Shown piece after piece: positions 30-34,300 of a DNA stretch of 55,614 nt. The position numbers and the translations under genes are program-made. How positions within the stretch are numbered: the first letter of the stretch is position 1; the number at the start of each line of letters is the position of its first letter. Source of the DNA: Natronomonas salinimetallica (GTDB taxonomy: Archaea > Halobacteriota > Halobacteria > Halobacteriales > Haloarculaceae); contig NZ_JACDNQ010000018.1 in NCBI RefSeq assembly GCF_013839515.1, positions 10,736 to 66,349 on the forward strand, written 5' to 3'. The notes under the pieces were generated by a model, which saw only the letters and a list, made by a program, of their open reading frames with translations, searched no databases and was not told the DNA's origin.

Positions 30-1103
30 TCAGTCGTGGTCTGAAGCATCATCGTCGAGTGAAAGTTTGTCGAGTTGCGGTCGGCGTCGATTCTCCATTT
101 TCTGCCGGCGCTCGGCCTTGTCGTAGTGCTTCTCGATCGTCCGCATCGAGGCGTTGACCCGCTCGGAGGTATCCTGGGGATCGAAGCCGCGATCGCGATG
201 GAAAGTGATCGCACCCGTCCGAACAGCGTGCGGCGGCCTCGAGGACGGACACTGGCTCGCGGACTCCGAGGACGTCCACCCGCAGGTCTCTCGACGCTTG
301 TCGTGCGGGCAGGGCTCATCGGTGTGCCAGCAGGGCTGGGTGGCCTGGTACATCCACGAGCGGAACGTGCCCGGGGACGGACGGCCCTGCGTCGAGCGCG
401 TCGTGAACAGCGGCGCACGCCCCTCCTCGTCGTGGCGGTCCCAACGATGCTCCTGGAGGTAGCGATCGAGCGCCTCGGCGACCTCCGGCAGGATCGCGAC
501 GTCTCGCTCCCCGTCGAGCTTGTTCTTGAGCGGCGTCCCCTGTCGCGGCCGATGCCTGAACTCGAGGATCTGAAACTCACTGTCGTAATCGCCGAGGTCG
601 AGCGCACGAACGCCCCCGATTCGAGCGCCCGTATGCCAGATGACCTCGAGGACGGCGTGCCACTTCGTCCCGAAGAGGCCGTTCGACTCGTCGCGAAAGT
701 GCAACAACAGGTCGGTCGCGGCCTCCGTCGTGAGCTTCTCATCGCGAGACTGCTCGTCGGGAGTCGCCCGCGGGACGTGGATCGTCTCGTGGAGGTCCTC
801 GCGAACCGCCCCGATGTCCTCGCAGAACTCGATGAAGCGCTTGAGCAAGCCCATCTGGTTCTCGAGGCTGCTGGGGCTGATCTCCGCCGCCCGGTCGTCT
901 TGGTACAGCTCGAAGTCGAGCCCGGAGAGCTCCGAAACCTGCTCGATCTCCTCGGCATCGCACCACTGGACGAACTGCCGGAGGTCGAGTCGGTAGGTCT
1001 GGACCGTCGAGTCGGCCCTGTCGCGGCGGATCCGCCGGAGGTAGCGTTTGACGGCGTCGGCGACGCTGAGGTCCTCCGCAGCGGAACGACGGTCATCGCT
1101 CAC
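30..1103 (-). CDS. Tyrosine recombinase/integrase (XerC/D-like, haloarchaeal)
   Basis: This 357-aa site-specific recombinase probably integrates and excises the element at tRNA-Val. The N-terminal SAM-like core-binding domain is at about residues 12-110. The catalytic domain carries Arg161 (TGARIGGVR), the His292-x-x-Arg295 pair (PHAVR) and the nucleophile Tyr327 (KHYDKAE). Four cysteines (258, 265, 274, 285) with nearby histidines form a probable zinc-binding insertion just before the HxxR box, as I recall from other haloarchaeal integrases. The GTG start at 1103 is chosen because it overlaps the stop of the upstream gene as GTGA. It is the last gene of a long leftward operon of overlapping small ORFs. 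Confidence 0.93.
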   Translation of the reverse strand: MSDDRRSAAEDLSVADAVKRYLRRIRRDRADSTVQTYRLDLRQFVQWCDAEEIEQVSELSGLDFELYQDDRAAEISPSSLENQMGLLKRFIEFCEDIGAVREDLHETIHVPRATPDEQSRDEKLTTEAATDLLLHFRDESNGLFGTKWHAVLEVIWHTGARIGGVRALDLGDYDSEFQILEFRHRPRQGTPLKNKLDGERDVAILPEVAEALDRYLQEHRWDRHDEEGRAPLFTTRSTQGRPSPGTFRSWMYQATQPCWHTDEPCPHDKRRETCGWTSSESASQCPSSRPPHAVRTGAITFHRDRGFDPQDTSERVNASMRTIEKHYDKAERRQKMENRRRPQLDKLSLDDDASDHD

Positions 1104-7689: not shown

Positions 7690-8745
7690 ATGAGCAAAGG
7701 AGCGACGGAGGACGAAATCCGTAGGAGGTTACAGAACATCGATCCTTACGATTTCGAGTACTTCGTTTCTGACCTATGGGAGTCTCAGGGGTGGGAAACG
7801 GAGGTTTCGCAGGCATCGAACGATATGGGTGTCGATATCATCGGTGAGAAATCCGACGGGCTTGTCGATCAGAAGGTTGCGATTCAGGCGAAGCGCTACA
7901 CCGACGGGAATTCTATCGGACGACCGGATATCCAGCAGTATCTCTCGCTGAGGCAGCAGGATTCAAAGACTGACGCCGTCGTAGTCGTCACGACCTCGTC
8001 GTTCGCCAGTACCGCTGAGGAGTACGCCTCGAATCACAACGTGAATCTGGTTGATGGGGATGATCTCGTCGAGCTGATCCAGGAAGGCCGCGAGCACCTC
8101 CTGGATGAATACGCTCCAGTTCTTGGTGGGGGAGATACCACAGACGATACTATCGACACCAATGAACCGACATCGAACCAGATCGTCCCTGATACGAGAC
8201 GCGATGCGGAAACAGAGTTACCGGGGCCGTTCAATGATGAAGAGAACCGACGGCGAGCTGCGATCGGGTCCAGCGCGATCGGGTTATTCCTGATCATCAA
8301 CCCAACTAACATCGGTGGTCCGATCGGATCGCTCGGTACGATATTCTTAGTTCTTGGTGCGATCGTCTACTTTTATCCCGAGGAGGCGTGGGAAAAGATC
8401 TCCCCGACAGAAGTGCTGATAAAAGAGTTCAGAGAGGGGAAAGTGGTTGAGAAGGGTGGAACGGTGAAATACAAAGGCGATGATGGGGAGAAGGTATTCG
8501 ACAATTTCGAGGATAATCAGCGCAATACACAACAGGCGGTGCTATATGGAGAACTGGTTCGGCAGAACGGTCGTCCGCCAGAGGTTGAGAAAGGAAGGCT
8601 GCCGACTAAAATCGTCTCGTCAGGAGAAACAGAAACGGCTGCCTATCGATTTGCGGTACAGAATGAGCCACCTGAAGAAATCGCTGCTGACATGGATATG
8701 AGCCAACAGGAGATCGTCAACCGGTTGTCCGGATATACTTCCTGA
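7690..8745 (+). CDS. Mrr-type restriction endonuclease fused to membrane helices
   Basis: In this 351-aa protein the N-terminal Mrr_cat-type nuclease domain (about 12-135) has the PD-(D/E)xK signature: Asp49 in GVDII and Gln66-Ala-Lys68 in AIQAKRY, followed by GRPDIQQYLSLRQQ and a VVVVTTSSF strand. A linker leads to two hydrophobic helices (about 191-228, a hairpin), then a 120-residue C-terminal domain ending in an HTH-like segment (AADMDMSQQEIVNRLSG). Mrr-like nucleases act in defence against modified or foreign DNA. Membrane anchoring would place this one at the cell envelope, where incoming DNA arrives. It has its own TATA box. Confidence 0.82.
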   Translation: MSKGATEDEIRRRLQNIDPYDFEYFVSDLWESQGWETEVSQASNDMGVDIIGEKSDGLVDQKVAIQAKRYTDGNSIGRPDIQQYLSLRQQDSKTDAVVVVTTSSFASTAEEYASNHNVNLVDGDDLVELIQEGREHLLDEYAPVLGGGDTTDDTIDTNEPTSNQIVPDTRRDAETELPGPFNDEENRRRAAIGSSAIGLFLIINPTNIGGPIGSLGTIFLVLGAIVYFYPEEAWEKISPTEVLIKEFREGKVVEKGGTVKYKGDDGEKVFDNFEDNQRNTQQAVLYGELVRQNGRPPEVEKGRLPTKIVSSGETETAAYRFAVQNEPPEEIAADMDMSQQEIVNRLSGYTS

Positions 8746-8837: not shown

Positions 8838-9506
8838 GTGAGCGTAGCCAATTACGTCCGGGTCTCGACAGAGGACCAGTCCCTCAAGCGGCAGCTGCAC
8901 GCGACAATCGAATACGCCGAAGACCTCGGCGTCGATCGATCAGCAATCGAAACGTTCCGCGACAAGTCGACAGGGACGGACACGAACCGTCAGGAGTTTA
9001 CTGAATTGCTTGAGCGCGCTGAGGAGTTTGACGCGATCGTAGTCCATTCAGTTTCGAGAATCGCGCGATCTATCCGTGACTTTGAGGACACTGTCGACCG
9101 GGTCGTCGATGACGCTGGCACAGAGCTGCATATAATCAGCGAAGGATTCGAACTGATACCGGGTGAGAATGATCCATATCAAAAAGCAATGCTACAGATG
9201 CTTGCTGTCTTCGCGGAGCTCGAAGCCGAGATGGCACAAAATCGAACGCGTGAGGGGCTTCGGACGCGAATGCAAAATGACGAGTACCACCACGGCCCAG
9301 CACCGCTGGGCTTTGAGAAGAACGACGGCCGTTTAATAGAGGGAGCGAATTACGACCACGTAGTTGTGATCCTCCAGGAGGTCGTGTCCAACAACCTGAG
9401 TAAGCGGAAGGCTGCGAGCGAACTCGACTGCGCACGGGTGACGATTAATCGAGCTCTCGAGCGGGCAGAGCTGTATGGAATAGAAGCCGAGAGCACGGCC
9501 TCATAG
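8838..9506 (+). CDS. Serine recombinase (resolvase/invertase family)
   Basis: This 222-aa protein has the resolvase catalytic domain at residues about 3-150, with the nucleophile Ser10 in NYVRVSTEDQ, the arginine motif VSRIARS and the long E helix (FAELEAEMAQNRTREGLRTR). A short C-terminal HTH (SKRKAASELDCARVTINRAL) binds DNA. It could resolve dimers or invert a segment of the element, or be a transposition helper. The GTG start at 8838 agrees with the TATA box. The next gene follows two bases later. Confidence 0.9.
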   Translation: MSVANYVRVSTEDQSLKRQLHATIEYAEDLGVDRSAIETFRDKSTGTDTNRQEFTELLERAEEFDAIVVHSVSRIARSIRDFEDTVDRVVDDAGTELHIISEGFELIPGENDPYQKAMLQMLAVFAELEAEMAQNRTREGLRTRMQNDEYHHGPAPLGFEKNDGRLIEGANYDHVVVILQEVVSNNLSKRKAASELDCARVTINRALERAELYGIEAESTAS

Positions 9507-10253: not shown

Positions 10254-10453
10254 CACAGTGGGATCCGGACGGCATCGAACTCTCCGAAACGTTTCGAGAG
10301 TACGTCGACGAGCTGCGCGAGACGGCATCGTTTTCTGATTTCGGGTATCGCCACGAGAGCGCGACTGATTCAGTTATGAGAGCACATCGAGCAGAGACGG
10401 CAGTAGCGTTGTTTGGTAAACGACCGTACACCCGCATCCGGGGGGGTCCGTGA
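10250..10453 (+). CDS. Small hypothetical protein preceding the secreted protein gene
   Basis: This 67-aa protein reads from a TTG at 10250 (overlapping the previous stop) to a TGA that overlaps the ATG of the next gene. It contains an acidic amphipathic segment (DGIELSETFREYVDELRETA) and a basic C-terminus. The composition looks like a real haloarchaeal protein, but the TTG start is weak evidence. It could be a cytoplasmic regulator or chaperone of the operon. Confidence 0.4.
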   Translation: MTQWDPDGIELSETFREYVDELRETASFSDFGYRHESATDSVMRAHRAETAVALFGKRPYTRIRGGP

Positions 10454-11946
10454 TGCGGTCGCGGTTGTTCGCAATCTTCGGCGTGGCGCTGTTGCTGTTG
10501 GCCGGGCTGACCGGGCCGGTGGCAGCCGCGCCGGACTTCAACGAAGACGCGGAGGCGGCACAGAATCCGTATATCACGGCGGACGTGACGGTCGACGGCT
10601 TCGATCGCGGCGAAATGTCGGTCGGCGAGTACGAGGACGATAGCGGCGAGATCGTGTCGCTGCCGGCCTCCGTGGTGAAAAGCGAGGACGTCGACGACAT
10701 CGGGACGGGCGAGGTGAATCCGTACACGTTCGTCGCGAGCGACATCAACTTCAGCGACGCGGGGGCGTTCCCGCGGGACAAAGACTCCGTGAGCGCACTC
10801 GATGCGTCGGAGTGGTCGACGGACACGAGCTCGTCGGCGGGCTCGATGTCGGTGTCGGACAGCGAGACGGCGCCGGGCGTTGATGCGGTGTCGATCTCGA
10901 CGTCGTCGCAGACGAGCGGCGACACGGCGGTCGCGACGTTCGGGAACTTCAGCGTGACGTCGGACGTCGAGAAGCGGTATCTGCAGGCGGTCATGGACGT
11001 GAACACGCTGGATTCGGGGACGACGCTCGAGCTTCGAGCGACGGACTCGGACGGCGACTACGTCGTGGCGACGCTGGACTCGGGGGCGACGGCCTCGGAT
11101 GCCGACGTGATCGGCGCGACGACGGGCGAGGGCTTCGTCTTCCAGGAGCAGGTCGGCGGGCTGTCCGTCCAGGGCAGCGGTGACGGTGCGATGGGCGAGA
11201 TTCAGTCGATCGACGTTCACGTTGTCGACGGGAACGCTGACATCGACGTGTCGGCGTTGAACGTCCAGAAGACGTCGGAGTGGTCATTCGGTGCGGAGCG
11301 GGTTGATTCGGACGACGACGACGAGTTCGAGACGAACACGATTCGGGACGTTTCCGAGCCGGGAGCGATCTCGATTCACGACGTCTCGACGATGAGCGGC
11401 GAGTTCGACAGCGCGGAGATCGCAGGGATCACGATGCCGATGGAGTTCGCGGCGTCGGATCTCGATAACGACAGCGATCTCGTGGACGTGACGTTCGACG
11501 AGGCGACGAACTACCCGAGCTTCGAGTGGCGGCAGGAGGCGAACTACCGACTGCAGCTGCCGGACGCCTACGATCTGTCGTACGCGAACGCAGCACTCGA
11601 GCAGGAAGTGTCGGTCCCGGAGAACCGATACAGCGTTGTCGAGATCGCTGAAGGTGCATCCGGGACGGACTTCGAGGACATCGACTCCTGGACGGATAAG
11701 AGCGGGTCGCTGTCGTCCGAGGGGACGACGGTGGAACTCGATTCGACGATCCAGGTCGGCCAGGAGATCGTGGTTCACGAGTCGGTGCTTGTGACCGAGG
11801 ACGAGAAGTCGGCGGTCCAGGCGGTCGGTGGCGTTGGTCAGTTCGGGAGCTCCGGCGGTGGGATTCTCGACATGATTCTCTCCCCGTTCGGCGCGATCGC
11901 GGGCGCCGTGGGTGCGCTGCTCGCTCGGGCTCGAGGAGTGATCTGA
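10453..11946 (+). CDS. Secreted, C-terminally anchored surface protein (spike-like)
   Basis: This 497-aa protein has a Sec signal peptide at residues 1-26 (MRSRLFAIFGVALLLLAGLT, cleavage after AAA), an acidic, cysteine-free, beta-rich ectodomain of about 440 residues, a Gly/Ser linker and one C-terminal hydrophobic helix (ILDMILSPFGAIAGAVGALL) with a short basic tail. This layout equals that of pleolipovirus VP4-type spikes and of S-layer-like surface proteins, though I see no diagnostic motif. It opens the membrane-protein operon, and its ATG overlaps the previous stop (TGATG). It is not a fusexin of the cysteine-rich kind. Confidence 0.75.
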   Translation: MRSRLFAIFGVALLLLAGLTGPVAAAPDFNEDAEAAQNPYITADVTVDGFDRGEMSVGEYEDDSGEIVSLPASVVKSEDVDDIGTGEVNPYTFVASDINFSDAGAFPRDKDSVSALDASEWSTDTSSSAGSMSVSDSETAPGVDAVSISTSSQTSGDTAVATFGNFSVTSDVEKRYLQAVMDVNTLDSGTTLELRATDSDGDYVVATLDSGATASDADVIGATTGEGFVFQEQVGGLSVQGSGDGAMGEIQSIDVHVVDGNADIDVSALNVQKTSEWSFGAERVDSDDDDEFETNTIRDVSEPGAISIHDVSTMSGEFDSAEIAGITMPMEFAASDLDNDSDLVDVTFDEATNYPSFEWRQEANYRLQLPDAYDLSYANAALEQEVSVPENRYSVVEIAEGASGTDFEDIDSWTDKSGSLSSEGTTVELDSTIQVGQEIVVHESVLVTEDEKSAVQAVGGVGQFGSSGGGILDMILSPFGAIAGAVGALLARARGVI

Positions 11947-14034: not shown

Positions 14035-15690
14035 ATGCGTCGGGGGCTGTTGGTAGCGATCGCGCTCGTCGTGTTGCTTCCGGCGATGCTGGGGCTGCCG
14101 GCGGCCGGCCAGCAGTCCCCGGCGGACGAGTCGGAGTACTCGCTCGAGGAGCTTCGCGAGGGCGGGCGATCGCACGCAGGTGCGCCGCCGTCGATGCGGT
14201 TCCTCGGGCAGTACGGCTCGGCGACGTTGCGGCACGAGCCGGTCGGGTTCGGGACGGACGAGTGGGCGTACGTGAAGCCGGGCGGGGAGACGGTCCAGAA
14301 GAACGAGGTAACGCTTCGGACGATCCGTCTCGGCGATCCGGATTCGGCGCTGACGGTGCGTGTCGTCTCCTGGAACGAGGGCGAGCGGACGATTCAGACG
14401 GAGAACGGCACGCGGACGGAGCCGGTGGCGCGGAACGTCTCCGAGCAGGTGATCGAGGCGGAGGCGGGTCGCGGCTACGATAACAGCACGATCGCGCTGC
14501 CGGCGAGTTTCGAGGAGCAACAGCACATTACGATGTGGGTCGAGGAGTACCCGGAGGCGCGCTGGCACTTCACGCATCGGAGTGTCGGGACGACGCGACC
14601 GATCGATATCTCGTCGTGGGGAGATTTCCTCTCGGCGCTGTTTTGGAAGATCGGCGTGTGGGCGATCCCGGCGCTGTTGATCGGTGGTGCGCTGGGGCGT
14701 CGGCATCGCGAGCGCGCGATTGTGGGTCCCCAATGGGGGCTCGCGAAATGGGGGATCGCGCTGTCGATTCCGATCGGGTTGCTATCGACGTACTTCGCGT
14801 TCCAGGGGTCGATCCTGGCGACACGGATCCCGCAGGGGATCGCGTTGATCACGGGGATCCTGGGGTACGCGCTGGTGCTCGAGGCGGGCGACATGAGTCT
14901 CGAGAAGTTCCTGTTCCGTCGCCAGGAGCTCGAGTCGGCGACGACGCCGCGGGGCGAGGAGTCGCACGATTCGCGGTTCGTCGATCACGCGATCAAGAAG
15001 GGCGTTCGTCGCGAGCGGAACCAGGAGCTCGTGTTGATCGAGCCGGGGCTGTCGGCGTACATCGGCCGGTTGCGCGGGCAGGTAGCGGCGCTGGACGTGT
15101 CGGATCTGGTGACGCACAAGAAGGGCCAGGACAGTCCGTTCGCGATGGAGATAGAGCTCGATCCGGAGTTCGATTTCCGTGATGCGCTGATCCACAAGCC
15201 GCCGACGATCTCCCGGAAGCCGTTGATGTCGAAGGCGGAGCTGCCGCTGGTGGGTGAGACGGAGATCCCGAACCTGGGGGTCGTGGTGCCGCTGGGTGCG
15301 GGCGTCGGGCTGGGGTGGCTGCTCGCGGATCAGACGCTCGGGCTGCCGGGCGTGGGCGCGGTCGTGGGCGTGATCGTGGCGCTGCCGTTCATCCACGAGG
15401 CGACGGACGGCGGCGCGGAGACGGAGCCGGCGCCGTATCACTTCACGCAGGCGGAGGCGTCGTTGAGTTTCGAGGCGGAGGAGTACTCGGACTCGAAGCT
15501 TCTCGACGAGTATCGGCGGATCGCGTGGACGGAGCGGATGAAGACGCCGCTGGACGCGAAGCGGCAGTCGACGCAGTTCGACGAGACGGTCTCGCGTGAG
15601 CTGTCGGAGACGACGCTCGGCGATCTCGGGATCGAGGAGGACGTCGACGGGAGCGATCAGTCCGGAGGTGTCGCGAGTGGCGACGATTGA
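14035..15690 (+). CDS. Large membrane protein with ectodomain and five membrane helices
   Basis: This 551-aa protein has a signal peptide at about 1-25, then an ectodomain (26-197) with three N-glycosylation sequons (Asn124, Asn134, Asn150). Three membrane helices at about 201-221, 238-258 and 265-285 follow, then a charged cytoplasmic domain (about 288-405), two further helices (about 408-452) and an acidic C-terminal cytoplasmic tail. The layout would let it join an outside beta domain to a cytoplasmic NTPase. It is co-transcribed with the NTPase gene and likely forms the core of the envelope complex. No family recognised. Confidence 0.72.
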   Translation: MRRGLLVAIALVVLLPAMLGLPAAGQQSPADESEYSLEELREGGRSHAGAPPSMRFLGQYGSATLRHEPVGFGTDEWAYVKPGGETVQKNEVTLRTIRLGDPDSALTVRVVSWNEGERTIQTENGTRTEPVARNVSEQVIEAEAGRGYDNSTIALPASFEEQQHITMWVEEYPEARWHFTHRSVGTTRPIDISSWGDFLSALFWKIGVWAIPALLIGGALGRRHRERAIVGPQWGLAKWGIALSIPIGLLSTYFAFQGSILATRIPQGIALITGILGYALVLEAGDMSLEKFLFRRQELESATTPRGEESHDSRFVDHAIKKGVRRERNQELVLIEPGLSAYIGRLRGQVAALDVSDLVTHKKGQDSPFAMEIELDPEFDFRDALIHKPPTISRKPLMSKAELPLVGETEIPNLGVVVPLGAGVGLGWLLADQTLGLPGVGAVVGVIVALPFIHEATDGGAETEPAPYHFTQAEASLSFEAEEYSDSKLLDEYRRIAWTERMKTPLDAKRQSTQFDETVSRELSETTLGDLGIEEDVDGSDQSGGVASGDD

Positions 15691-16519
15691 CGATCCCGAG
15701 TCGATGCTGCCGGACAACGAGGAGGACGTCGACGATCGGCGGCCGTCGGCGACGGCGTTCCCGGTGCGGCCGGCGCTCGAGGTCCTGCAGTTGGATCAGC
15801 GCGAGTTGATCGATGTGTCGGATCCGCGCCTCGAGGAGCGGCCGACGCCGGAGTGGGATCTGCGTCGCGGGGTGCCGCATCGTCGGGCGTTGATCGAGTG
15901 GTATCAGCGGGCGACTGTGCGGACGCTGGGGCGGTTTGCTGACTCGGTGCCGCCGGAGAGCCTGCTTCGGGACGACGTCTTCGTGGCGTCGCTGACGGGC
16001 GCGAGCGAGCACGCGAAGCAGTATCGCGGGCGGCTCGAGGACGACAAGTTGATCCCAGCGACGACGGCGGCGTACGATGAGCTCCGCGGCGGTGCGGGCG
16101 AGTACATCGAGGTGTTCGAGGACGACAGCGATTTCAGTCCGATGGATTTCGACCCGGAGCGGCAGGCGAACGTGGCGATGCGGCCGGGGTTCAGTTACAT
16201 CGATCGGATTCAGCAGTCGGCGCTGTCGGCGTTGTGGGGTGGCTTCGAGGATCGGGATGCGCTGCGGGACTGGTTGCACGATCTCTCGAGGGCGACGAAC
16301 GGGCAGCACGAGTCGGAGCTCTCGAAGCGGGTGATGGGGGACGCGAACGCGGTCGCGTGTCTGACCAACCGCGTGTCGGACGAGCACGGGCGCGGGTTTC
16401 GCGAGCGGTTCGCGATCAAGAAGTTGCTGCCGTCGTTCGCGGCGGCCGTCGAGTCGATGGAGACGGGCGAGTTGGCGAAGCGGCGGAAGACGACAGCGCA
16501 GACCTATCAGTTTGGATAA
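15677..16519 (+). CDS. Soluble hypothetical protein coupled to the NTPase gene
   Basis: This 280-aa charged, helical protein has no membrane segment. The GTG at 15677 is chosen because GGAGGTG lies seven bases upstream and the gene overlaps the previous stop by 14 bp; the open frame extends further but only as a shadow. Segments such as HRRALIEWYQRATVRTLGRF and DRDALRDWLHDLSRATNGQH suggest an alpha-helical bundle. Its position between the large membrane protein and the NTPase suggests a cytoplasmic adaptor. Confidence 0.68.
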   Translation: MATIDDPESMLPDNEEDVDDRRPSATAFPVRPALEVLQLDQRELIDVSDPRLEERPTPEWDLRRGVPHRRALIEWYQRATVRTLGRFADSVPPESLLRDDVFVASLTGASEHAKQYRGRLEDDKLIPATTAAYDELRGGAGEYIEVFEDDSDFSPMDFDPERQANVAMRPGFSYIDRIQQSALSALWGGFEDRDALRDWLHDLSRATNGQHESELSKRVMGDANAVACLTNRVSDEHGRGFRERFAIKKLLPSFAAAVESMETGELAKRRKTTAQTYQFG

Positions 16520-16521
16520 TC

Positions 16522-17847
16522 ATGAGCACACAGGAATCCACGGACAGCGAGCAGGAGAGCAGTCCCCGCGAGGAGCTTCGGGAGACGATTCGAGCGGCGT
16601 TCGACCCGTACATGAGGAGCCGGCAGGCCCTCGATGCGAAGGGGATCCCGCCGGACGAGCGCGGGTACAACGACCGGAATCGGCACAACGACGGCGCGGA
16701 GATCTACCAGCAGGTGGGGCTCGCGCCGTTCATCAAGGAGCTCGAGCGCGCCGAGCGGCGTGATCACGAGGTGTCGTCGCATCCGCAGGCACTCGCGCAT
16801 TTGGTCTGTCATATCTCGGACTGGGAGCGGCATCAACTCGGCGAGGAGGAGCCGGATTTCTCGGAGATGGGTCGGCTTCGGAAGCCGGTGCTCGAGTGGC
16901 TGGCGGACGAGGACGATCGGCTGCAGCGACTCCGTCCAGGCGGGACGGAGATCCTGATCCACGGCGAGCAGGGGACGACGAAGACGACGGCGATGTACTG
17001 GTTGATCGCGTTGATCATGCAGCTGAAGCAACGGGAGAACGTCCTTTGGTTGTCGTCGCTGGACGATACGGAGTGGACGGCGCTGGCGCCGTTCGCGACG
17101 GTCGCGCTGCCGGCGGGTGAGCGGGTGAAGGTCCAGGCGAACCCGTACACGCGGGAGCTTCGCGGCGAGATGGTGGATCTGACCATCGACGACGTCGCTC
17201 GGGACGTGATCCGGTACGAGGATCCGCGCGATCTCCTCGAGCAGCTGGACCGGCGGACGTCGGGGCAGTTCTACGTTCTGTATCCGGATCCGAACTTCCG
17301 AGCCTGCGAGGAGATCACGGGGCGATCGTACGCGGGGATCCGAGACGAGGAGGTCGACAAGCTCGGCGACGCGGCGACGATCCACCATTGGTGGTTTGCG
17401 CTCGTCGAGGAGCTCGCGCACGGGACGCAGTATCGCGAGTGGACGACGATCGTCGCTGACGAGGCGCACAAGTGGCTGAAGGCGGGGAAAAGCGACGACG
17501 AACACGACTGGTGGCACAAGATCGACGACTTCTCGTCGACGTGGGCGGACGCTCGGAAGAAGCGGCTGTCGGGGATCTTCGCGACGCACATTTGGCACGA
17601 GATCCCGGATCGCGTCCGTCGGAAGGTGCGCTGGGGAGCGACAATGAACGGCGAGCCGTTTCCGTCGAAGGCGCCGCTGGACGGTCGGAACCGGAATCAG
17701 GATCTCGGAGATACCTGTGTCTGGACGCCGCTGGCGTGGAATTTCGTCGGGTACCCGAATGTACCGCGAAAGGCCGGGACGACGGTGCCGGCGGAGATCT
17801 CGGTGTCGTTTCCTGACTGGGAGGCAGCAAAAAATGATCTCACATAG
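16522..17847 (+). CDS. P-loop NTPase with atypical Walker A (assembly, packaging or export motor)
   Basis: This 441-aa protein has its P-loop at residues 148-155, GEQGTTKT. It has the spacing of Walker A but Thr instead of Gly before the catalytic Lys154. Walker B is TIVADEAHKW with Asp313-Glu314. A helical domain of about 135 residues precedes the NTPase core, and a Trp-rich region (HHWWFAL, EHDWWHKIDDF) surrounds Walker B. The size and position beside membrane proteins recall pleolipovirus VP8-type or VirB4/HerA-type motors, but it is too short for a full VirB4 and lacks a clear HerA signature. It probably powers DNA or protein movement through the complex. Confidence 0.75.
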   Translation: MSTQESTDSEQESSPREELRETIRAAFDPYMRSRQALDAKGIPPDERGYNDRNRHNDGAEIYQQVGLAPFIKELERAERRDHEVSSHPQALAHLVCHISDWERHQLGEEEPDFSEMGRLRKPVLEWLADEDDRLQRLRPGGTEILIHGEQGTTKTTAMYWLIALIMQLKQRENVLWLSSLDDTEWTALAPFATVALPAGERVKVQANPYTRELRGEMVDLTIDDVARDVIRYEDPRDLLEQLDRRTSGQFYVLYPDPNFRACEEITGRSYAGIRDEEVDKLGDAATIHHWWFALVEELAHGTQYREWTTIVADEAHKWLKAGKSDDEHDWWHKIDDFSSTWADARKKRLSGIFATHIWHEIPDRVRRKVRWGATMNGEPFPSKAPLDGRNRNQDLGDTCVWTPLAWNFVGYPNVPRKAGTTVPAEISVSFPDWEAAKNDLT

Positions 17848-17848
17848 C

Positions 17849-18082
17849 ATGAACGACGCGATTTCGAGAGGTAGCGAGTCTGAGGCGCGAATCGGGTCGA
17901 GCGTTTCCGGTGTCGATCAGACCGGGAATCTCGCGACCGGATTACACGCGCGCGTTATGAGGACGGGTGGGGGGACCCTCGCGTCCGCGATACAAGTCGG
18001 CGCGCGGGCAGTCGCGCGTGAACTACGCGAGCGAGCACGCGGTCGGACTTCACACGCGACCGCGGGGGGCGCGGATGTCTGA
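17849..18082 (+). CDS. Small hypothetical protein between NTPase and propeller protein
   Basis: This 77-aa protein reads from ATG 17849 (ATG 17834 is an alternative that overlaps the NTPase end) to a stop inside the start of the next gene. It has a Ser/Gly-rich first half and a basic helical second half (QVGARAVARELRERARGRTS). The frame is open and overlaps both neighbours, but composition is the only other support. Confidence 0.45.
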   Translation: MNDAISRGSESEARIGSSVSGVDQTGNLATGLHARVMRTGGGTLASAIQVGARAVARELRERARGRTSHATAGGADV

Positions 18083-21000
18083 GCGCGAGCGAGCGGTCGG
18101 GCGAGCGGTCGCGATCGTGTTGGTGCTCGCGCTGGCGGTGGCGCCGATCGCGCCGTTCGTGATCGCGCCGAGCTCGGCGCAGTCGGCGCCGTCGGGGATG
18201 GTCGGCGTGTCGGACAGCCAGATCTCCGACATCCGAGCCGAGCAGGGCGCGGGCGGCCTTGAGGCGAGCGAGCTGACCGTCTATACCAGCGAGCACGCGG
18301 AGACGACGTCGGTGTCGATCGTGACGGCGGAGCAGGCCGACGAGATCGCCGCGGGGACGGCGCTGCCGGACGTCGCGAACCAGCGGGTGTGTTCGACGCC
18401 GGCCGGGGACAAGAACCCGAACGCGGACTGTGAGACGACCCCGTCGCTGGTGATCTCCGACGAGGAGCACTCGGCGGGGCGAGAGGTGGCGGTGCGGGCG
18501 GATCCTCTCGAGGACGCGCTGGGGTACACGCCGTCGTTTCTGACGGTTCGGAACTCCGAGTCCGGCGAGGAGTGGCAGTACCCGACGCGGATCGAGGACG
18601 GCTGGTTGATCGTCGATGTCGAGCACTTCTCGAGTAACACGGTCGAGTTCCAGGGGACGGCGGAGATCGACGCGACAGCGACGGACGGGTCGCAGTTCAC
18701 ATACGGGCTGGAGGCGACTGATTCGGTTGAGAACTTCACGATCGACGTGACGGGTCAGATAGCGACGCAGTCCGAGACAGCGACGTTGAGCGGTGCATCG
18801 GATGGGGATACTGTCTCGTACGACATCGGCGGGAATATCGCTCCGGGCGGGCCGTCAGCGACCGACGAGCCGACAGTGACGTTCGAGGGGAACGCTGGGG
18901 ATCCGGACATGGCGTTTACCGACTCGAATTCTAATCTGAAGTTCGTGGATGCAGACGGGAATGTCGGCGATACGGGCGTCACAGCGGACGATGTCGGCGG
19001 CGTCGCGGACTTCGATGACGACGGCGATCAGGAGATCGCGTTTGTCGGATCGAACGGCGTCGAGTTTGTCGATGCGAGCGGATCAACGACGACGATGGAT
19101 ACAGCAGCCAACGATATTGGAGGGGTTGGAGATCCTGACGAGGACGGGGATCCAGAGGTTGCATACATGGACGGTACTAACCTGCAGTTTGTCGACGGAG
19201 CAGGGAATATCGACGATCTCGGCAGAAGTGTCAACGGCGTCGGAGGGATCGGTGATGTTGACGACGATGGGAGTCCGGAGATCGTCGCTGAAGGATATAC
19301 GTATGACTATTTGACATATTATCAGCCGGATGGGACCGAGGATGCGTCTTTCGACACGACGCCGCTGTATGATGCAGGGACGGTTGGCGATATAGATGGC
19401 GACGGAGCTGTCGAAGCGATGTACAAGAACCAAAACAATAATCTCGGATATGCAGATGCGAACGGGCAAGAGGGGACGCTGGCGTCGGGAATTGATTTCG
19501 TTGGTGGGGCTGGCGATATAGATGGGGATGGTGAGGTAGAGGTGTCGTATGATGCTACGGGGCTGAAGTATGTTGATGGATCCGGATCTGTGGAATCGAC
19601 AGGATTAGATATAACACGAGCAGGCGGGATTGCTGATATCGACGGTGATGTGACGACGGATCCGGCGGTCGATATCGATGGAGATGGGACAGACGAGACG
19701 TCGGTGTCGGGGGAGGTCAGCGGTGGTGAGACGGTGACGAAAGAGATCGCGTCGCTGTCGCGATCGGATAGTTCGGCGACGGTGTCGGTCAGCGGCGGCT
19801 CGGTCGACGTGTCGATCGAGTACGACGAGCGGACGGAGACGGTCGATCCAGCGGTGTCGGTGAATGGGAATACAGTTGATCACACGGGAACGCTGGCAGA
19901 GGGCGACACAGTTTCGTTATCGACGGACGCGAGTTGGTTAAGCGACAGCAACACAGTCGATGTCTCGATGTCGGCGCCCGCATCCGGGCCGGCGCCGAAG
20001 GTCGGGCTGGATTACGATCACACGGCGACTGACCAGATCTCGACGTCGTATCAGGCGACGAAATTCGAGGAGCGATACAACGTCTCCCGAACGTTCGCGG
20101 ACGAGACGGCCGACGTCCAGGTGACGATCCCGTTCGACAGCTCGCGGATGGTGTCGATCGGGTCCGTCGAGTACAGCGTCGACGGGGGCTCCTGGCAGTC
20201 GGTGCCGGACGAGCACTACGCACTCGATGGAACGACGCTGACGGCGAATCTCTCGGATGCGAACGGTGGCGCGTTCCCATCGGGATCGACGATCGAGGTA
20301 AACGCCCGTGGTCGGAAGATCCAGGTCGATAACGGCGACGTGACGGTGACAGATCCGTCGGGCATCGACGAGGAACTCGATACGGAGATCCGCGTCGACG
20401 ATCGCGCGCCGGACTTCCGGATGGACGTCGGGCCGACCGAATCGGGCGATCGCGTCCACTACGCGGACTCGAATGAGTATCCGACGGAGGATTACTCGAT
20501 TATCAAGGGCGACGGCACGCAGTACGTCTACCTTCCGAACGCGGGCAACGGCGATCGGTTCCGGATGCGGCATCTCGAGACCCAGGTGTCGATCAACGAC
20601 ACGGGCGACGTCCGCCTCGAGGTGCTCGAAGCCGGCGAGGAGCCGGAGATCGACGTCTCGCCGGGACCGGGCGGCGAGGGCGACGAGGTGACGGTGCGGT
20701 ACTATCAAACCGAGACGGGGCTGAAGTACGTCCTCTCGAGTATCCAGGACAAGATCGTGATCGACAGCGACGTCGCGGAGTCCCCGGCGATCTTCACGAC
20801 GACGGACTCGGAGGACACCTGGACGATCCTCGAGGAGGCGGCGGGGACGGCCTCGTCGTCGACGGGCGGCGTTGCGCAGTTCTCCCAGCGCGCGAGCGGG
20901 CTCTTTAGCTCAATCCCCGGCGGCGGGCTGGGGCTGGTCGCGATCGTGGCGCTGGCGGGCGGCGGGTGGACGCTGCTCCGACGGCGGAGTCCCGACACGG

Positions 21001-21470
21001 CGGGGGCGGTCTCGTCGACGGCGGAGTCGACGGGCAGCGGTATCCTCGGCGTCCTCGAGCGAGTGCTCGGGTACGTCGGCTCGCTGGTGGAGACGCTGCT
21101 CGGGAACCGGAACGCGACGATCGCGCTGGCGGTCGGCGCGGCGCTCGTGGGCGCTCGGTTCGGCTTCTTCCAGCTGCCGGAAGGGACGGCGATCCTGTTG
21201 GTCGTGGCGTCGGTGCCGATCGGGTCGTACGTCGTCCTGCGTCGGACGGGCGTGGTGTCCCAGCGGGTGTGGCTGGCGTCGACGGTCGTCGCGACGATCC
21301 TGGGGCTGGAGTTCGTCGCGCCGGGGACGGTCCAGACGGCGATCGAGCAGCTGACGTCGGAGAACGTCGCGCCGCTGTTGATCCTGGCGGCGGCTGGGGC
21401 CGTCTACCTGTGGTATCGGTCGCGGCAGTCGGATCAGCCGCGGATCGTGATCGGCAGCGGGGAGGACTGA
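18075..21470 (+). CDS. Giant surface protein: FG-GAP beta-propeller with C-terminal membrane helices
   Basis: This 1131-aa protein has a signal peptide at about 1-36 (VAIVLVLALAVAPIAPFVIA). An N-terminal beta domain (40-270) is followed by about seven repeats of roughly 45 residues (about 275-545). Each repeat carries a G-G-x-x-D-x-D-x-D-G calcium loop and a ...EVxY...LxFVDxxG strand pair (for example VGGVADFDDDGDQEIAF, VGGAGDIDGDGEVEVSY): an integrin-like FG-GAP/VCBS propeller. A second beta-rich region (545-910) and a linker lead to four or five hydrophobic helices (about 952-1115). The propeller part is visibly richer in A/T than the rest. The likely role is contact with a host or partner surface. 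Confidence 0.82.
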   Translation: MSERERAVGRAVAIVLVLALAVAPIAPFVIAPSSAQSAPSGMVGVSDSQISDIRAEQGAGGLEASELTVYTSEHAETTSVSIVTAEQADEIAAGTALPDVANQRVCSTPAGDKNPNADCETTPSLVISDEEHSAGREVAVRADPLEDALGYTPSFLTVRNSESGEEWQYPTRIEDGWLIVDVEHFSSNTVEFQGTAEIDATATDGSQFTYGLEATDSVENFTIDVTGQIATQSETATLSGASDGDTVSYDIGGNIAPGGPSATDEPTVTFEGNAGDPDMAFTDSNSNLKFVDADGNVGDTGVTADDVGGVADFDDDGDQEIAFVGSNGVEFVDASGSTTTMDTAANDIGGVGDPDEDGDPEVAYMDGTNLQFVDGAGNIDDLGRSVNGVGGIGDVDDDGSPEIVAEGYTYDYLTYYQPDGTEDASFDTTPLYDAGTVGDIDGDGAVEAMYKNQNNNLGYADANGQEGTLASGIDFVGGAGDIDGDGEVEVSYDATGLKYVDGSGSVESTGLDITRAGGIADIDGDVTTDPAVDIDGDGTDETSVSGEVSGGETVTKEIASLSRSDSSATVSVSGGSVDVSIEYDERTETVDPAVSVNGNTVDHTGTLAEGDTVSLSTDASWLSDSNTVDVSMSAPASGPAPKVGLDYDHTATDQISTSYQATKFEERYNVSRTFADETADVQVTIPFDSSRMVSIGSVEYSVDGGSWQSVPDEHYALDGTTLTANLSDANGGAFPSGSTIEVNARGRKIQVDNGDVTVTDPSGIDEELDTEIRVDDRAPDFRMDVGPTESGDRVHYADSNEYPTEDYSIIKGDGTQYVYLPNAGNGDRFRMRHLETQVSINDTGDVRLEVLEAGEEPEIDVSPGPGGEGDEVTVRYYQTETGLKYVLSSIQDKIVIDSDVAESPAIFTTTDSEDTWTILEEAAGTASSSTGGVAQFSQRASGLFSSIPGGGLGLVAIVALAGGGWTLLRRRSPDTAGAVSSTAESTGSGILGVLERVLGYVGSLVETLLGNRNATIALAVGAALVGARFGFFQLPEGTAILLVVASVPIGSYVVLRRTGVVSQRVWLASTVVATILGLEFVAPGTVQTAIEQLTSENVAPLLILAAAGAVYLWYRSRQSDQPRIVIGSGED

Positions 21471-22310: not shown

Positions 22311-24011
22311 TCAGTGGATGATCTCAGCCTGCTCGCGAGCGTAGAGATCGTCCAAGAGCGCCTTCGCCTTCGTGGTCTCGTAGCCACCACCCGGCGTCGC
22401 GAACTCGACAGTCGCGTTGCGGAACTCGCGCTCGTTGCCACCCGAGCCGATCCAGGCGTCGAGGGCCTCGTCGATCACCTCGGGAGCCCACGGCGAACTC
22501 GAAGAGCGGTAGCGACTGAGAACAGACTCGATCTTGATTCGGACGTCGCCGGAGGCGTCGTCGACGACGTCAGCGGCGTAGCGTGAGAGCCACTTCTGCA
22601 TCGCGCCGCTCATCTTCTCCAGGAGGCGCTCGTCGAGATCGAGCAGACCGGCCGTCGCCTTGAACGCGGCGTCGAGATGCTGCTCGGTCGTCCGAAGGAC
22701 GTCACGGATCTCCTCAGCGACCTTCCGAGAGCGGAAGCGGATGAGGCCGTTGCTGTTCTCGAGGATGCCGTCGAGTTCGTCCAGGGCGCGGTAGATCGTC
22801 GAAATGTCGCGGCCCGAGCCGTCGGCGACGCGCTGGTAGTGCGTCTCGCCGTTGTCGGCGATCTCCTCGAGGACGTCCATGTCGGCCTCGGAGAGCTCCC
22901 GAAAGGAACGGACGATGACGGACTCCTGCTCGGCCTCGATCTCCGGCGTCGGGTCGGGATGGAGCGCGATCGAGCGCTCGGAGGTCTGAGCCTGGAAGTG
23001 ATCGTCGGGGACGAACGCGACCTCGGCGTCGGTGGGCACGCCGGCGTGCTCGAGGCAGTTGATGACGGTCTCCTCGAGTTCCTGTGTCAACTCGTCGCGA
23101 TCGTTCCAGGCGACGCCCTGCTGGTTGAGCGTGATCGAGTCGTTGTTCGGAGCCTGCCCCTTCTTGAACAGGGCAGCGAACTTCGGATGATAGAGCGGGT
23201 CATCGGTCTGCTGCTTGCGAGGGTGCTGGGGGTGGTAGTGTTTCAGCTGCTTCCCGAGCCGCTGGCCGGGGAGCTTCCGGGCCGTTCCCGCGGGATAGTT
23301 CAGGCGATGATTGTAGCCGACGACCTTCTCGTTGTCGACTTTGTAGGTCACCTTCCGGCCTTTCTCGGAGCCAAGCAGGTACATCAGCCGCCAGAAGTAG
23401 CCGCCCTCGTGCGTGAGCGTCTGGGCGTAGTTCCGCGTGAGGCGGACGTAGCGTTCGAACTGGCTGATACTACTGTGTTCGCCGTCGATGTGCCGCGGAT
23501 CGAGATGCGCGTCGTTGAAGCGCTGGGAAGCCTCCTCGCAGATGGCGTCGACGACCGTCCGGAAGTGCTTGGGAACGGCATCGGGCTCGATGTTCGAACT
23601 GTTGACGTCGACGTCGATGCCTTCGGGATCGGCGTGGGGGTCGGCCTCGAGGTCGTCCCAGACGTCCTCCCACGGCGTCGAGATGTTCATGCCAGCGAAG
23701 CGAGGGCGGACGTGAAAGCTGAGTTTCTCGCGGCCGGGGCCGCGGCCTTTGATCCGCCACTCGTACATCGAGTCGGTCTCGAGGTCGAAGCGGCTGGCGG
23801 GCTCGATCGCACCCTGCTGGTAGTAGATCTCGAACTCGAAGATGTCGACGCCGTCGTCGCGACGGATGGGGATCTCGAGTTCGGTGCTGCCCTCGAAGGG
23901 CGGGCCGAGCAACGCGCCGGAGAGTGCCCAGTAGGGGGCGAGCGTGCCGGGGTACCAGAGTGTCGCCCGGAGTTCGTGCGGCGCCGTCGCGACGTGGTCA
24001 CCCTCAGTCAT
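22311..24011 (-). CDS. Large haloarchaeal-element protein with winged helix (DUF7845-like)
   Basis: This 566-aa soluble protein ends the rightmost leftward operon. Its N-terminal half opens with an HELRATLWYPGTLAPYWALS segment and contains a beta-rich domain with a VRPRFAGMNI strand. A winged helix lies near 390-450 (LSEADMDVLEEIADNGETHY followed by RDISTIYRALDEL). It resembles long proteins I recall as DUF7845 from haloarchaeal viruses and plasmids; that name is from memory and unverified. The conserved size and DNA-binding domain suggest a role in replication or control of the element. Confidence 0.65.
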   Translation of the reverse strand: MTEGDHVATAPHELRATLWYPGTLAPYWALSGALLGPPFEGSTELEIPIRRDDGVDIFEFEIYYQQGAIEPASRFDLETDSMYEWRIKGRGPGREKLSFHVRPRFAGMNISTPWEDVWDDLEADPHADPEGIDVDVNSSNIEPDAVPKHFRTVVDAICEEASQRFNDAHLDPRHIDGEHSSISQFERYVRLTRNYAQTLTHEGGYFWRLMYLLGSEKGRKVTYKVDNEKVVGYNHRLNYPAGTARKLPGQRLGKQLKHYHPQHPRKQQTDDPLYHPKFAALFKKGQAPNNDSITLNQQGVAWNDRDELTQELEETVINCLEHAGVPTDAEVAFVPDDHFQAQTSERSIALHPDPTPEIEAEQESVIVRSFRELSEADMDVLEEIADNGETHYQRVADGSGRDISTIYRALDELDGILENSNGLIRFRSRKVAEEIRDVLRTTEQHLDAAFKATAGLLDLDERLLEKMSGAMQKWLSRYAADVVDDASGDVRIKIESVLSRYRSSSSPWAPEVIDEALDAWIGSGGNEREFRNATVEFATPGGGYETTKAKALLDDLYAREQAEIIH

Positions 24012-24376
24012 CGCGACCCACCGTCGGCGGCGATCTCGGCAGCGCTCTCGTCGACCGCAGCGTCAGCGTCGGCGTCGGCCTCCTGGAGGAAGCCGTCGCG
24101 ATCGTGCGTGATCGCGCGGCGTCGCTCGTCGAGCTTCCGGATGACGTGCTCGCGGTTGCGACAGCGTCGTTCGACCTGGAACCAGTAGGCGAGCTCCTCG
24201 GGATCGTCGATGCCTTTGACGATCGCCATCGCGGTCGCGAGCTCCGGTGTCTGGCCCTGGCCCGTATCGAGGCCGGACTGCGAGCGCGTGTGCAGCCAGA
24301 CCGCGGGGTTGTACCCGATGGCGTCGACGACGTCCGGGAACCGCGGGTAGTCGCCGGCGTTGGTCTGCCCGCGCAT
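24008..24376 (-). CDS. Small hypothetical protein
   Basis: This 122-aa protein has a conserved-looking core (YPRFPDVVDAIGYNPAVWLH, then LATAMAIVKGIDDPEELAYW) that is mostly helical, with a basic helix (RRCRNREHVIRKLDERRR) and an acidic Ala/Asp tail. Both ends overlap neighbours. The constant pairing with the larger gene after it suggests joint function. No family name can be given with confidence. Confidence 0.65.
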   Translation of the reverse strand: MRGQTNAGDYPRFPDVVDAIGYNPAVWLHTRSQSGLDTGQGQTPELATAMAIVKGIDDPEELAYWFQVERRCRNREHVIRKLDERRRAITHDRDGFLQEADADADAAVDESAAEIAADGGSR

Positions 24377-24990
24377 CAGGCATCGCCTCCATCAGTCGCG
24401 TACTGTTTGAGATCGGACTGCCCGGGCGGCTGGTAGTCCTCGAGGCGCTGGTTGAGCACGCGCATCTGATCACCGATACCGACGGTGTCCTCGAAGGGTC
24501 GATCCACGACACGGAACCGCTCGAAGACGCCGTCATCGATGTGTTCGAGATACGCCTGGCCGGCGAGCAGAACGACCGTCCCGTAGGGATTGTAGAAGGA
24601 AAATCGCGTCTTGAGCCCGCGAGAGACTTGGACACTCCAGCGGCCAGCCTCGTAGTCACCAATGTAGACATCGCTCGAGGGATCCAGCGAAGCATCGTAG
24701 GGCTTGATCTCGTCACCGGGCGAGAGGACGCCATGTTCGGCACTGATGATCCACCAGGCGTCGCAGCGCTGTTGACAGTACTCGCGCTTCTTCCTGAAAT
24801 AGGTCGAGTCGTAGAGGTCTGCAGCTGGGACTGGCTCGTCGGTATCGATTTTCGAGGAGCCACAGCCGACGACACCTAACCGAGGGGTGCCGATACAGTC
24901 GTGGCAGTACTGTCGGTCTTCGTCCGGGTCGCGTGAGTCGATCCCACCGCCCGGCGGAAGCCGTGTCTCGCAGTAGTAACAGCGGCTCAA
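24376..24990 (-). CDS. DUF6884-like protein with N-terminal zinc knuckles
   Basis: In this 204-aa protein the first 35 residues hold CYYC and CHDC, a treble-clef-like zinc site. The body matches the DUF6884 pattern: LGVVGCGSSKIDTDEPVPA, then A-x-x-LY-x-S/T-x-x-FRKKREYC, then WWIISAEHGVLSPGDEIKPY. DUF6884 proteins occur in phages and archaea, and I recall some beside DNA-base-modification (DpdA-like) genes. The reaction is unknown. The HTH-free, enzyme-like architecture suggests a nucleotide- or nucleic-acid-acting enzyme. Confidence 0.75.
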   Translation of the reverse strand: MSRCYYCETRLPPGGGIDSRDPDEDRQYCHDCIGTPRLGVVGCGSSKIDTDEPVPAADLYDSTYFRKKREYCQQRCDAWWIISAEHGVLSPGDEIKPYDASLDPSSDVYIGDYEAGRWSVQVSRGLKTRFSFYNPYGTVVLLAGQAYLEHIDDGVFERFRVVDRPFEDTVGIGDQMRVLNQRLEDYQPPGQSDLKQYATDGGDA

Positions 24991-26357: not shown

Positions 26358-26424
26358 CGGGTCTCACCGCCGGAAGGTACTTCAGGCTGCTTACCTGAGG
26401 TACCGAAAGTATTAAAATTGTTAT

Positions 26425-26498
26425 GGGTTCGGGCAGATTTGAACTGCCGGCCTCCTCCATGTCAAGGAGGTGTCATAACCAGCCTAGACCACGAACCC
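26425..26498 (-). tRNA. tRNA-Val (anticodon GAC), element integration target
   Basis: Read leftward, the 74 bases fold as a tRNA: acceptor GGGTTCG/CGAACCC, anticodon stem CCTCC/GGAGG around a TTGACAT loop with anticodon GAC (Val), and T-arm GGCAG-TTCAAAT-CTGCC. CCA is not encoded. The 3' end faces the mobile element and the 5' end faces trpD. The gene is intact, so integration restored it. Confidence 0.95.
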
Positions 26499-31263: not shown

Positions 31264-31338
31264 ATGACCCACACAGCATACGTTGACCGCAGCGAAAAGA
31301 CGAAAATACGAGCCGTACCGGCCCGGAGGGCCGAGTGA
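31264..31338 (+). CDS. Short leader ORF overlapping the nrdJ start
   Basis: A 24-codon frame (begins MTHTAYVDRSEKTK) ends with a TGA whose last base is the first base of the nrdJ ATG (TGATG). This arrangement would couple nrdJ translation to the leader. The peptide is basic and has no domain. It may be a regulatory leader, or simply chance in an otherwise gene-free stretch. Confidence 0.3.
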   Translation: MTHTAYVDRSEKTKIRAVPARRAE

Positions 31339-34300
31339 TGTCCGGGGCAGACCCGTCCGCGGACGAACTCACTCTCCCGATCAAACGAACGACGGGTGAG
31401 ACCATGGCGGACCGACTCACGGGAAACGCCTATCACAACATCCTCCCCGCCCGGTATCTGCGGAAGGACGCCGACGGCGAACCCATCGAACAACAGGAGG
31501 AACTCTTCGAGCGTGTCGCCCGGAACGTCGCGCTGGCCGAGGCGGTCTTCGAGGCCGGGCGACGGGGCGTCGACATCACCGTCACGCCGGACCAACTCAA
31601 GCCGGACCACCCCCGGCGTGACGCACTCGCCGCCGAGGTCTTCGGAGCGGGCGTCACGACCGACGCCGACGCGGAGACGACGCTTTCGGTATACAACGTC
31701 AACAAGTTCGCCTACGAGACGCTCGTACCGGAACTCCCCGAGGCGATCCGGTCACACGTCGAGGAGACCGCCGACGCCTTCCGCGAACAGATGGAACGGC
31801 TCTCGTTTATGCCGAACTCGCCGACGCTCATGAACGCCGGCGACGAACTCCAACAGCTCTCGGCGTGTTTCGTCGATTCGCCCGAGGACGACATCGACGA
31901 CATCCACCAGACCGCCAAAGAGGCCGCGGAGGTGTTCCAGTGTCTCACGGCCGAAACGTCCGTCCACGTCGAACAAAAAGGCGTCACCTCGATCGCCGAC
32001 GTCGAGCCGGGCGACGAGATCGTCCAGCGCGACGGGGGCGACCACCGGTCGCGGCGTGTCGAGGAAATCCACGCCTACGACGACGCGCCGACGATGACGA
32101 TCACGACCGAGGGGGGGATCGACGTTCGCGGGACGCCGAACCACCGCCTTCTCGTCGACGGCGACTGGAAACGGCTGGACGAGATTCGGGCGGGCGATAC
32201 CGTTTCGGTCCGTCTCGGGTGGCTCCCCGAGGAGGCGGGCGCGGTCGAGCTCGAACCCGTCGAAGCAGGCCCACAGTGGGCCGCGGAACGGACTGTCTCG
32301 AACGAGTCCGTCGTCGAGCTTCACGCACAGGGACTCTGCGATTACGCGATCGCCGACCGGCTCGATTCGTCGCCGTCGACGATCCAGCGCCGCCGGGCCG
32401 ACGAACTCGACCTGCCGGCCAACGGGTCCGGCGGACGCGACGGCGGGCCGACGTTCGACGAAGAGCGGTTCCGCGAACTACACGCGGACGGCCACACGGA
32501 TTCCGAGATCGCCGACGCCCTCGGCGTCCACAGTACGACGGTCCGGAACGCGCGGATGGCCCAGTCGCTGTCGGCGAGCGGCCAGGCCGTAAAGTCCGTC
32601 TCACAGCCGGAGACGTTGAGCACGGATCTCGCCGAGCTCCTCGGCCTCTGGATCGGTGACGGGTCGGTTCACGAGGACGGAATCCGCTTCCACGTCTCCC
32701 GCGAGGAGACGCTCGAACACGTCGACCGTCTGGCGCGCCGAAGTTTCGATACGGGTGCCGATTGGACGTGGGCCGACGGGTGCTACGAGGTCGTCATCTA
32801 CAGCCACGAGATCAAACGGTTTTGGCTGCGGAACTTCGGCGACGCGAAGCCGTCCTCGAGTGAGGCGACGGTCCCGGAACCGGTTCTCGGTTCGGACCGC
32901 GATCGCGTGTACGCGTTCCTTCGTGGACTGTTTTCCGCCGACGGAACGCTCTCACAGAACCGGTATCCGCGGCTGTACAGCGCCTCCGAGGAACTCGTCG
33001 ACGGCGTCCATCAGCTCCTTCTCGGCGTCGGTATCCCGTCGACGATCTGGGCGTGGGATGACGACGAGCGCGACTACTACAGCGTCGCTCCGACCGACGA
33101 ACGCGGCCTCTCCGAGTTCGCCTCCCACGTCGGTTTCGTCGACGACCGTTCTGAGACGATGACCGCCTCCATCGCCGACGCCGAGTTGGAGCCGACGACG
33201 TGTGGGACGGTCCGCGACGCCGAGTGGACACAGGAAATCGTCGCCATCGAGGAGAGCGATCCGGCGACGGTGTACGACGTCACAGTCGAGGGGAACCACG
33301 AGTACGTCGCGAACTCGGTCGTCTCGCACAACAGCGGGGGCGGGATGGGGTATGCCTTCTGGCGACTCCGCCCCTACGGCGACGCTGTCGGCTCGACCGG
33401 CGGGATCGCGTCGGGGCCGATCACGTTCATGCGGACGTACGACCAGATGTGCGAGACGATCGCTCAGGGCGGCGCCCGTCGCGGCGCACAGATGGGCGTC
33501 ATGCGCATCTCACACCCCGACGTCATCCAGTTCATCCACGCGAAGAACAAGGACGTCTCCCTGGCCGAGACGCTCCGTCTGAACGACCCGGACGACTTCA
33601 CCCACAACTCCTTCGAGGAGGCCCTAGCGGAGGCCCGCGAACTCATCGACGACGAGGGGAAGGTCCCCGAGCACCTCCGGAACGCGGTCGAGGGCCACCT
33701 CTCGAATTTCAACATCTCCGTCGGCGTCACCGACGGGTTCATGGAGGCGCTGAAAGCCGGCGAGGAGTACACGTTCACCAACCCCCGGACGGGCGAACCA
33801 CACGTCGCAACGCCCGAGACGAAGGAGCTCTACGACATGTTCGGCCTCGGCGAGCACGTCGACGTCGGCGAGACGCTGTCGGTCCCCGCCGAGAAGCTCT
33901 GGGAGCACGTCCTCGAGGGAGCCCACGAGAACGGCGAACCCGGCGTCGTCTACCTCGAACGGATCAACAAAGAACACTCCTTCGACGTGGAGGAACATCC
34001 GGACCACCGAATTTTGGCGACCAATCCCTGCTTGACAGGTGATATGGAGGTACAGTTGTCCGATGGGACGACACGGCAGATCGGCGAATTGGCCGACGAG
34101 GAGTGCCGTATCACGGTTCGTACCCTCGATGATGGCGGCGTTACCTCCAGTCCGGCAACTGCATTTAAAACAAAAAAAGACGCCGACGTTGTTCGGATCG
34201 AGACCGAATCCGGTCCTACTATCCGCACGACCCCGGATCACAAGATTAGGTCGGCAGACGGGACTTGGGTCAAGGCTCAAGATCTCGATACTGGTGACGA

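Follow-up and report, generated by a model that had tools for sequence, protein, structure and literature searches.

Does an AT-rich island inside a gene record the single recent import of one domain, or can it mark a position at which domains are exchanged? The question was raised by the gene of a giant surface protein (1131 aa, P0001; 18075..21470, forward strand) in the window, by which we mean the whole stretch of DNA that was analysed (55,614 nucleotides). The initial annotation had taken the middle of this gene for a propeller of foreign composition that looked like a swapped receptor-binding module. Comparison with homologues indicated that such an island need not mean a single recent import; here it marks the exchangeable position.

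The gene is an open frame that starts with the ATG at 18075 and has homologues order-wide. Its product is a modular spike, built in order from a signal peptide, an N domain, repeats, a head, Ig-like repeats, a C domain and a membrane tail, all encoded on the forward strand. The signal peptide region (aa ~1-36, 18075..18182) is hydrophobic from aa 5 to 36, and the homologue in genome G067 matched TIGR04207 halo_sig_pep (8e-11). The N domain and the N-side stalk repeat together cover aa 122-260 (18438..18854; profile N, E 2e-51). The exchangeable head with FG-GAP-like repeats occupies aa ~261-525 (18855..19649), as indicated by its repeats, its similarity to the G067 head and the GC3 minimum. 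Ig-like stalk repeats follow at aa 526-616 (19650..19922; profile Ig), and the conserved C domain at aa 641-920 (19995..20834; profile C, E 4e-108), which was the best-predicted portion of the AlphaFold2 model of the protein. The membrane tail (aa ~942-1120, 20898..21434) contains several hydrophobic helices according to both hydropathy and the model. The signal peptide and the several C-terminal hydrophobic segments suggest that the protein is displayed on the surface.

Five intact calcium-loop motifs were found in the head, which for this count was set at aa 261-530; they start at aa 312, 353, 394, 439 and 481 (19008..19532, forward strand). These exact D-x-[DN]-x-D-G loops were spaced by 41, 41, 45 and 42 residues; shuffled head residues gave a mean of 0.34 loops, and five were reached in about 1 of 10,000 shuffles. 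The head also has two imperfect repeats, the first being degenerate and the last truncated. A sixth motif (D-x-D-x-D-G, aa 533) is located in the first Ig-like repeat, outside the head. As this loop belongs to the stalk, the earlier count of about seven calcium-loop repeats at aa ~275-545 was too high. The repeats themselves are regular. D-I-D-G-D motifs are encoded by stalk repeats and propeller alike, with resemblance at the DNA level (repeat family D2); this shared DNA may conceivably have served as an entry point for the propeller.

Pfam FG-GAP_3 matched the window protein below the cut-off (E 0.0076 for the whole protein and 0.0012 for the head alone), and the head, with 19.9 bits against a curated cut-off of 26.9, failed the FG-GAP / FG-GAP_3 threshold. 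The similar head of G067 passed Pfam FG-GAP (5e-25, 87.3 against a cut-off of 22.1) with seven repeats. A profile made from the window head and five relatives matched PDB chains of CRTAC1, PL11 lyase and ITFG2. The head resembles FG-GAP / integrin-type beta-propellers in its calcium-loop repeats at 41-45 aa and differs from them in remaining under the Pfam cut-off; we describe it as FG-GAP-like, a likely propeller of this type judging from its sequence. In the AlphaFold2 model of the whole protein (six-row alignment) the pLDDT of the head was mostly below 50. Fold searches with this low-confidence model gave pilus-subunit PDB matches, which were not used.

The composition of the gene changes in the same region. 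GC dips from 0.62-0.73 to 0.52 at 19150-19600. Across aa 275-545 the GC3 was 0.56, against 0.85 expected for the same residues from the codon choice of the flanks; amino-acid composition as the cause was ruled out by this per-residue control. The best single low-GC3 segment extended from aa 331 to 539 (19065-19691) and scored 17.5, compared with 2.7 or less in 200 shuffles. GC3 of the remaining operon genes in the window was 0.84-0.88. Codon usage is therefore non-uniform along the gene, with its minimum at aa 331-539, and the AT-richer propeller DNA between GC-rich flanks had been correctly described.

Homologues were sought across the order. The C domain was present in 57 of 392 genomes and was also found on plasmids of Haloarcula and Halosegnis. 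The window's own genome has three copies of the giant gene with three different heads. We excised 62 distinct homologous loci and annotated them with profiles built in this analysis, and 59 heads could be scored. The 59 exclude two loci that duplicate others (plasmids represented in both of two collections) and three whose head was missing or very short; weak C-domain matches in G255 and G192 were not fetched for the set. Genes of Salinigranum and of G067:C2, both without a C domain, and of Halorubrum sp. SD626R stand outside the 62 loci.

The 59 members have a common layout of N domain, one to four N-side repeats, head, one to eight Ig-like repeats, C domain and tail. The numbers of repeats on the N side and the C side rise together (Spearman 0.92, n=59), as would be expected of a head atop paired repeats. 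This suggests that the chain goes up one side of the stalk, makes the head and comes down the other side. An iterated profile captured 42 of the 59 heads in a class that we call jelly-roll-like from our reading of the sequence pattern. FG-GAP heads were present in two of the 62 loci, those of the window and G067. The head of locus L127 resembles YVTN-type propellers, with a sub-cut-off match to Pfam Lactonase (9e-4), and the other 14 of the 59 heads fall in no assigned class. In L154 (G252:C7) and L144 (G311:C5) the giant gene is broken into more than one frame.

IMG/VR scans with the protein, a five-member alignment and the head gave no relative, phage records gave no match to the giant protein, head, ATPase or 498-aa protein, and plasmid records gave none to the window head. 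Nothing recognisable as this family was found in the open-licence literature; a description outside that scope is possible.

In all 59 members the head had a lower GC3 than the remainder of its gene (mean -0.22), also with amino acids held fixed, and median GC3 was 0.54 for heads and 0.83 for C domains. The fact that the head is AT-rich in every member, whatever its class, indicates that the composition marks the exchangeable position and not the propeller of the window. The initial annotation had implied that the propeller had come recently, in one transfer, from a low-GC donor, the rest of the family being ordinary. The strong local GC3 drop with its sharp right edge near aa 540 would fit such a transfer, as would the similar propellers in secreted and pilin-type proteins outside the family, but we consider it highly improbable. 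Heads that are not propellers drop alike, the window ranks merely 16th of 59 in GC3 deficit, and the nearest propellers outside the family, in eight FG-GAP proteins found by blastp, had GC3 of 0.58-0.93, differing from their own genes by about -0.11 to +0.10. A unique import of the window propeller is disfavoured, since every scorable head is AT-rich; low GC3 as a property of propeller DNA itself was ruled out, the eight non-family propellers not being consistently AT-richer.

The AT-rich codons could also have originated in place, in a fast-evolving head, through relaxed codon optimisation or through selection of slow codons for folding, and their composition would then need no import. A valley that is universal in the family and centred on its variable domain agrees with this, and uniformly low GC3 could arise without exchange. 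However, the GC3 of the head was unrelated to that of its carrier: the correlation with the C domain of the same gene was r=0.03 for the head, 0.72 for the N domain and 0.70 for the tail (n=58-59), and 0.55 for the Ig-like repeats, all from genes that are kin, so that the points are not independent and P values are too small. A fixed slow-codon optimum could still yield such independence of the carrier. The low-GC3 shoulders also argue against an origin in place, as they extend into conserved repeats and fade within ~60-100 aa on either side of the head, the same range over which the sequence transitions occur. Operon genes across the loci had normal GC3, which followed the C domain (r 0.47-0.69) without a head-like dip, and FG-GAP domains of other proteins show no consistent AT-richness. 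On these grounds we regard an origin in place as unlikely, though it retains a real share of the probability.

Exchange of heads was evident when near-identical scaffolds were compared. In G067 and G093, which belong to the same genus, DNA that is 93-97% identical flanks segments of the gene without a match, 1661 and 1328 bp long. G067 carries the FG-GAP propeller and G093 a jelly-roll-like head on these scaffolds, and the replaced stretch takes in the N domain too. In the two copies of genome G072 (contigs C21 and C22), scaffold DNA is 90-92% identical and the heads are diverged homologues, 32% identical over 198 aa, not unrelated domains. These copies (L046 and L047) are two 8.2-kb contigs of one genome with nearly the same operon end and different heads. 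In 14 pairs the C domains had an identity of 0.80 or more; head identity was 0.19-0.34 in 12 of these (shuffled background: median 0.23, 95% 0.28), and the head was kept in two (0.81 and 0.91). The 14 pairs overlap; in our grouping they make up eight clusters, seven of them with exchanged heads. Sequence transitions were mostly located 30-100 aa beyond the head, within the flanking repeats.

The nearest relatives of the window gene have C domains ~52-60% identical, and no near-identical sister was found. The arrival of its own propeller was therefore not caught, and the case for exchange rests on the other pairs. The nearest scaffold relative identified, in Halorubrum sp. SD626R (L175), retains the C domain and membrane tail and has as its head an unrelated ~160-aa domain without calcium loops; the propeller is thus not as conserved as its flanks. 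The head closest to that of the window is that of G067, yet the C domains of the two are only 35% identical, which indicates separate histories of heads and scaffolds. Taken together, the comparisons give good support to replacement of heads while scaffolds stay constant. Of the swapped module originally proposed, the swap held for the family, and low GC as a mark of the propeller did not, being found in all 59 heads.

The giant protein is probably the spike-like surface protein of a family of haloarchaeal integrative elements and plasmids, with a constant scaffold and an exchangeable head at its tip. The scaffold (signal peptide, N domain, flanking repeats, C domain and tail) would hold one replaceable head, and replacement would proceed by homologous recombination between elements, via the repeats. 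The heads may be drawn from a common pool and change carriers faster than they become adapted to any of them. The location and variability of the head suggest that it binds a partner on the cell surface, and exchange would then alter which cells are bound. The archaeal element family thereby gains a candidate specificity determinant. As the main differences within natural pairs are in and around the head, the binding partner of the head is a directly testable question. Exchangeable tips are known from phage tail fibres, in which the shaft is constant and the receptor-binding end is replaced; the giant protein differs in being a single membrane-anchored chain with a mid-chain head, from an archaeal element in which no tail genes were recognised.

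More tentatively, the heads may constitute a gene pool of their own, whose unrelated folds move too fast, or are too isolated from homologous pairing, to adapt. The GC3 valley could then serve as an intragenic clock of exchange, and it may be the sharper because non-homologous heads escape a GC-biased gene conversion by which the flanks are kept GC-rich; we hold this to be possible, though short of an even chance. A shufflon or local cassette reservoir was rejected: head-like frames outside the gene were not found in the 62 loci, apart from two broken gene copies, and a search of the window's genome for further copies of the window head returned only the one. As no silent head cassettes were found, switching within a genome is unlikely. 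A serine resolvase-type recombinase is encoded in the element (window 8838-9506), and no invertible head cassettes were seen.

The giant gene is carried by an integrated element. A tyrosine integrase (30..1103, reverse strand) adjoins the left attachment site, and tRNA-Val(gac) (26424..26498, reverse strand) was the integration target. The right attachment repeat of 13 bp (26424..26436) is identical to G000:C10:10630-10642, which is situated 94-106 bases left of the window, matches the 3' end of the tRNA and adjoins the integrase. The integrase, tRNA-Val and 13-bp direct repeat define an element of ~26.5 kb, beginning ~105 bases left of the window and ending at 26436; an integrase and a tRNA 3'-end repeat at both borders are what a tRNA-gene integrative element should have. 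To its left is a formate-dehydrogenase cluster, identified by reading the sequences, and to its right are tRNA-Val and trpD, which adjoin each other in 6 of the 11 genus relatives. In those relatives in which both were found, trpD and the formate-dehydrogenase neighbour are separate, and an empty site was not seen. Possible defence cargo on the element consists of an Mrr-type nuclease and a PDC-M57A/DpdC-like protein (window 7690-8745 and 24376-24990).

The giant gene is the last of an operon whose order is repeated in related loci. It follows, on the same strand, genes for a conserved secreted or anchored protein of 498 aa without a GC3 valley (10450..11946), small membrane proteins, a conserved membrane protein of 551 aa (14035..15690), a conserved protein of 280 aa (15677..16519) and a P-loop ATPase with Walker A motif GEQGTTKT (16522..17847; phrog_22963, 1e-10). 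As far as the fetched sequence extended, the ATPase was near the giant gene in 56 of 59 loci. This linkage, together with the location on plasmids and an integrated element, suggests that the giant gene functions for the element and speaks against a host-benefit adhesin (for biofilm or mating) merely riding on it. Such an adhesin would be in keeping with FG-GAP propellers in non-family secreted proteins, one of them with Pilin_N (L174), but we judge it unlikely. The L174 protein (G296:C2, 2918-5503) combines Pilin_N, PKD and malectin domains with an FG-GAP-like end resembling the window head. Still less likely is a surface-exclusion or kin-recognition factor, in which the variety of heads would separate self from non-self and not choose targets. 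The three heads in the window's genome and the two in G072 would suit this role; no immunity partner was recognised, and the likeness of the heads to generic beta domains does not discriminate it from adhesion.

Among published systems, ORF6 of pR1SE comes closest. It is the largest protein of a haloarchaeal plasmid transferred in vesicles and according to PMC10818511 has a conserved C-terminal part and variable N-terminal domains, with a WD40 propeller in ~56%; an ATPase, ORF25, is present in the same pR1SE/apHPV elements (PMC10818511). The giant protein likewise combines a conserved C-terminal part with exchangeable domains. It differs from ORF6, as described there, in that its head is internal with repeats on both sides. 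Profiles of the window families had no significant match among the ORFs of pHTUR05, a pR1SE-like plasmid with a large gene followed by an S8 protease that was picked for comparison, and homologues of the apHPV core ORFs 6, 8, 17, 21, 23 and 24 were not found in this comparison; in the element of the window no S8 protease could be recognised. As no sequence relation to the pR1SE-like plasmid was found, the giant-protein family was not filed there.

Pleolipovirus spikes (HRPV/HHPV) have a similar role and are likewise secreted and C-terminally anchored, and in PMC10599561 their variable N2 domain is proposed to recognise the host S-layer. The giant, 498-, 551- and 280-aa proteins showed no similarity to the HHPV4/Harhisp1 spikes, and the ATPase gave short matches only. 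Five window families had no significant match to the Pleolipoviridae core (VP3-like protein, spike, ORF6/7 and NTPase) of Harhisp1 and HHPV4. Membership in the apHPVs or pleolipoviruses was rejected on the lack of matches to pHTUR05 and to the structural genes of Harhisp1/HHPV4. Among the genes compared, pleolipoviruses share with the window's element only the DUF7845 regulator (22311..24011, reverse strand), which is also found in virus LSV-48N.

The chromosomal part of the window contains an open frame of 1656 aa (31335-36305) and a family-B DNA polymerase (49334-54433) with an intein-type Hint domain in two stretches and a LAGLIDADG domain.
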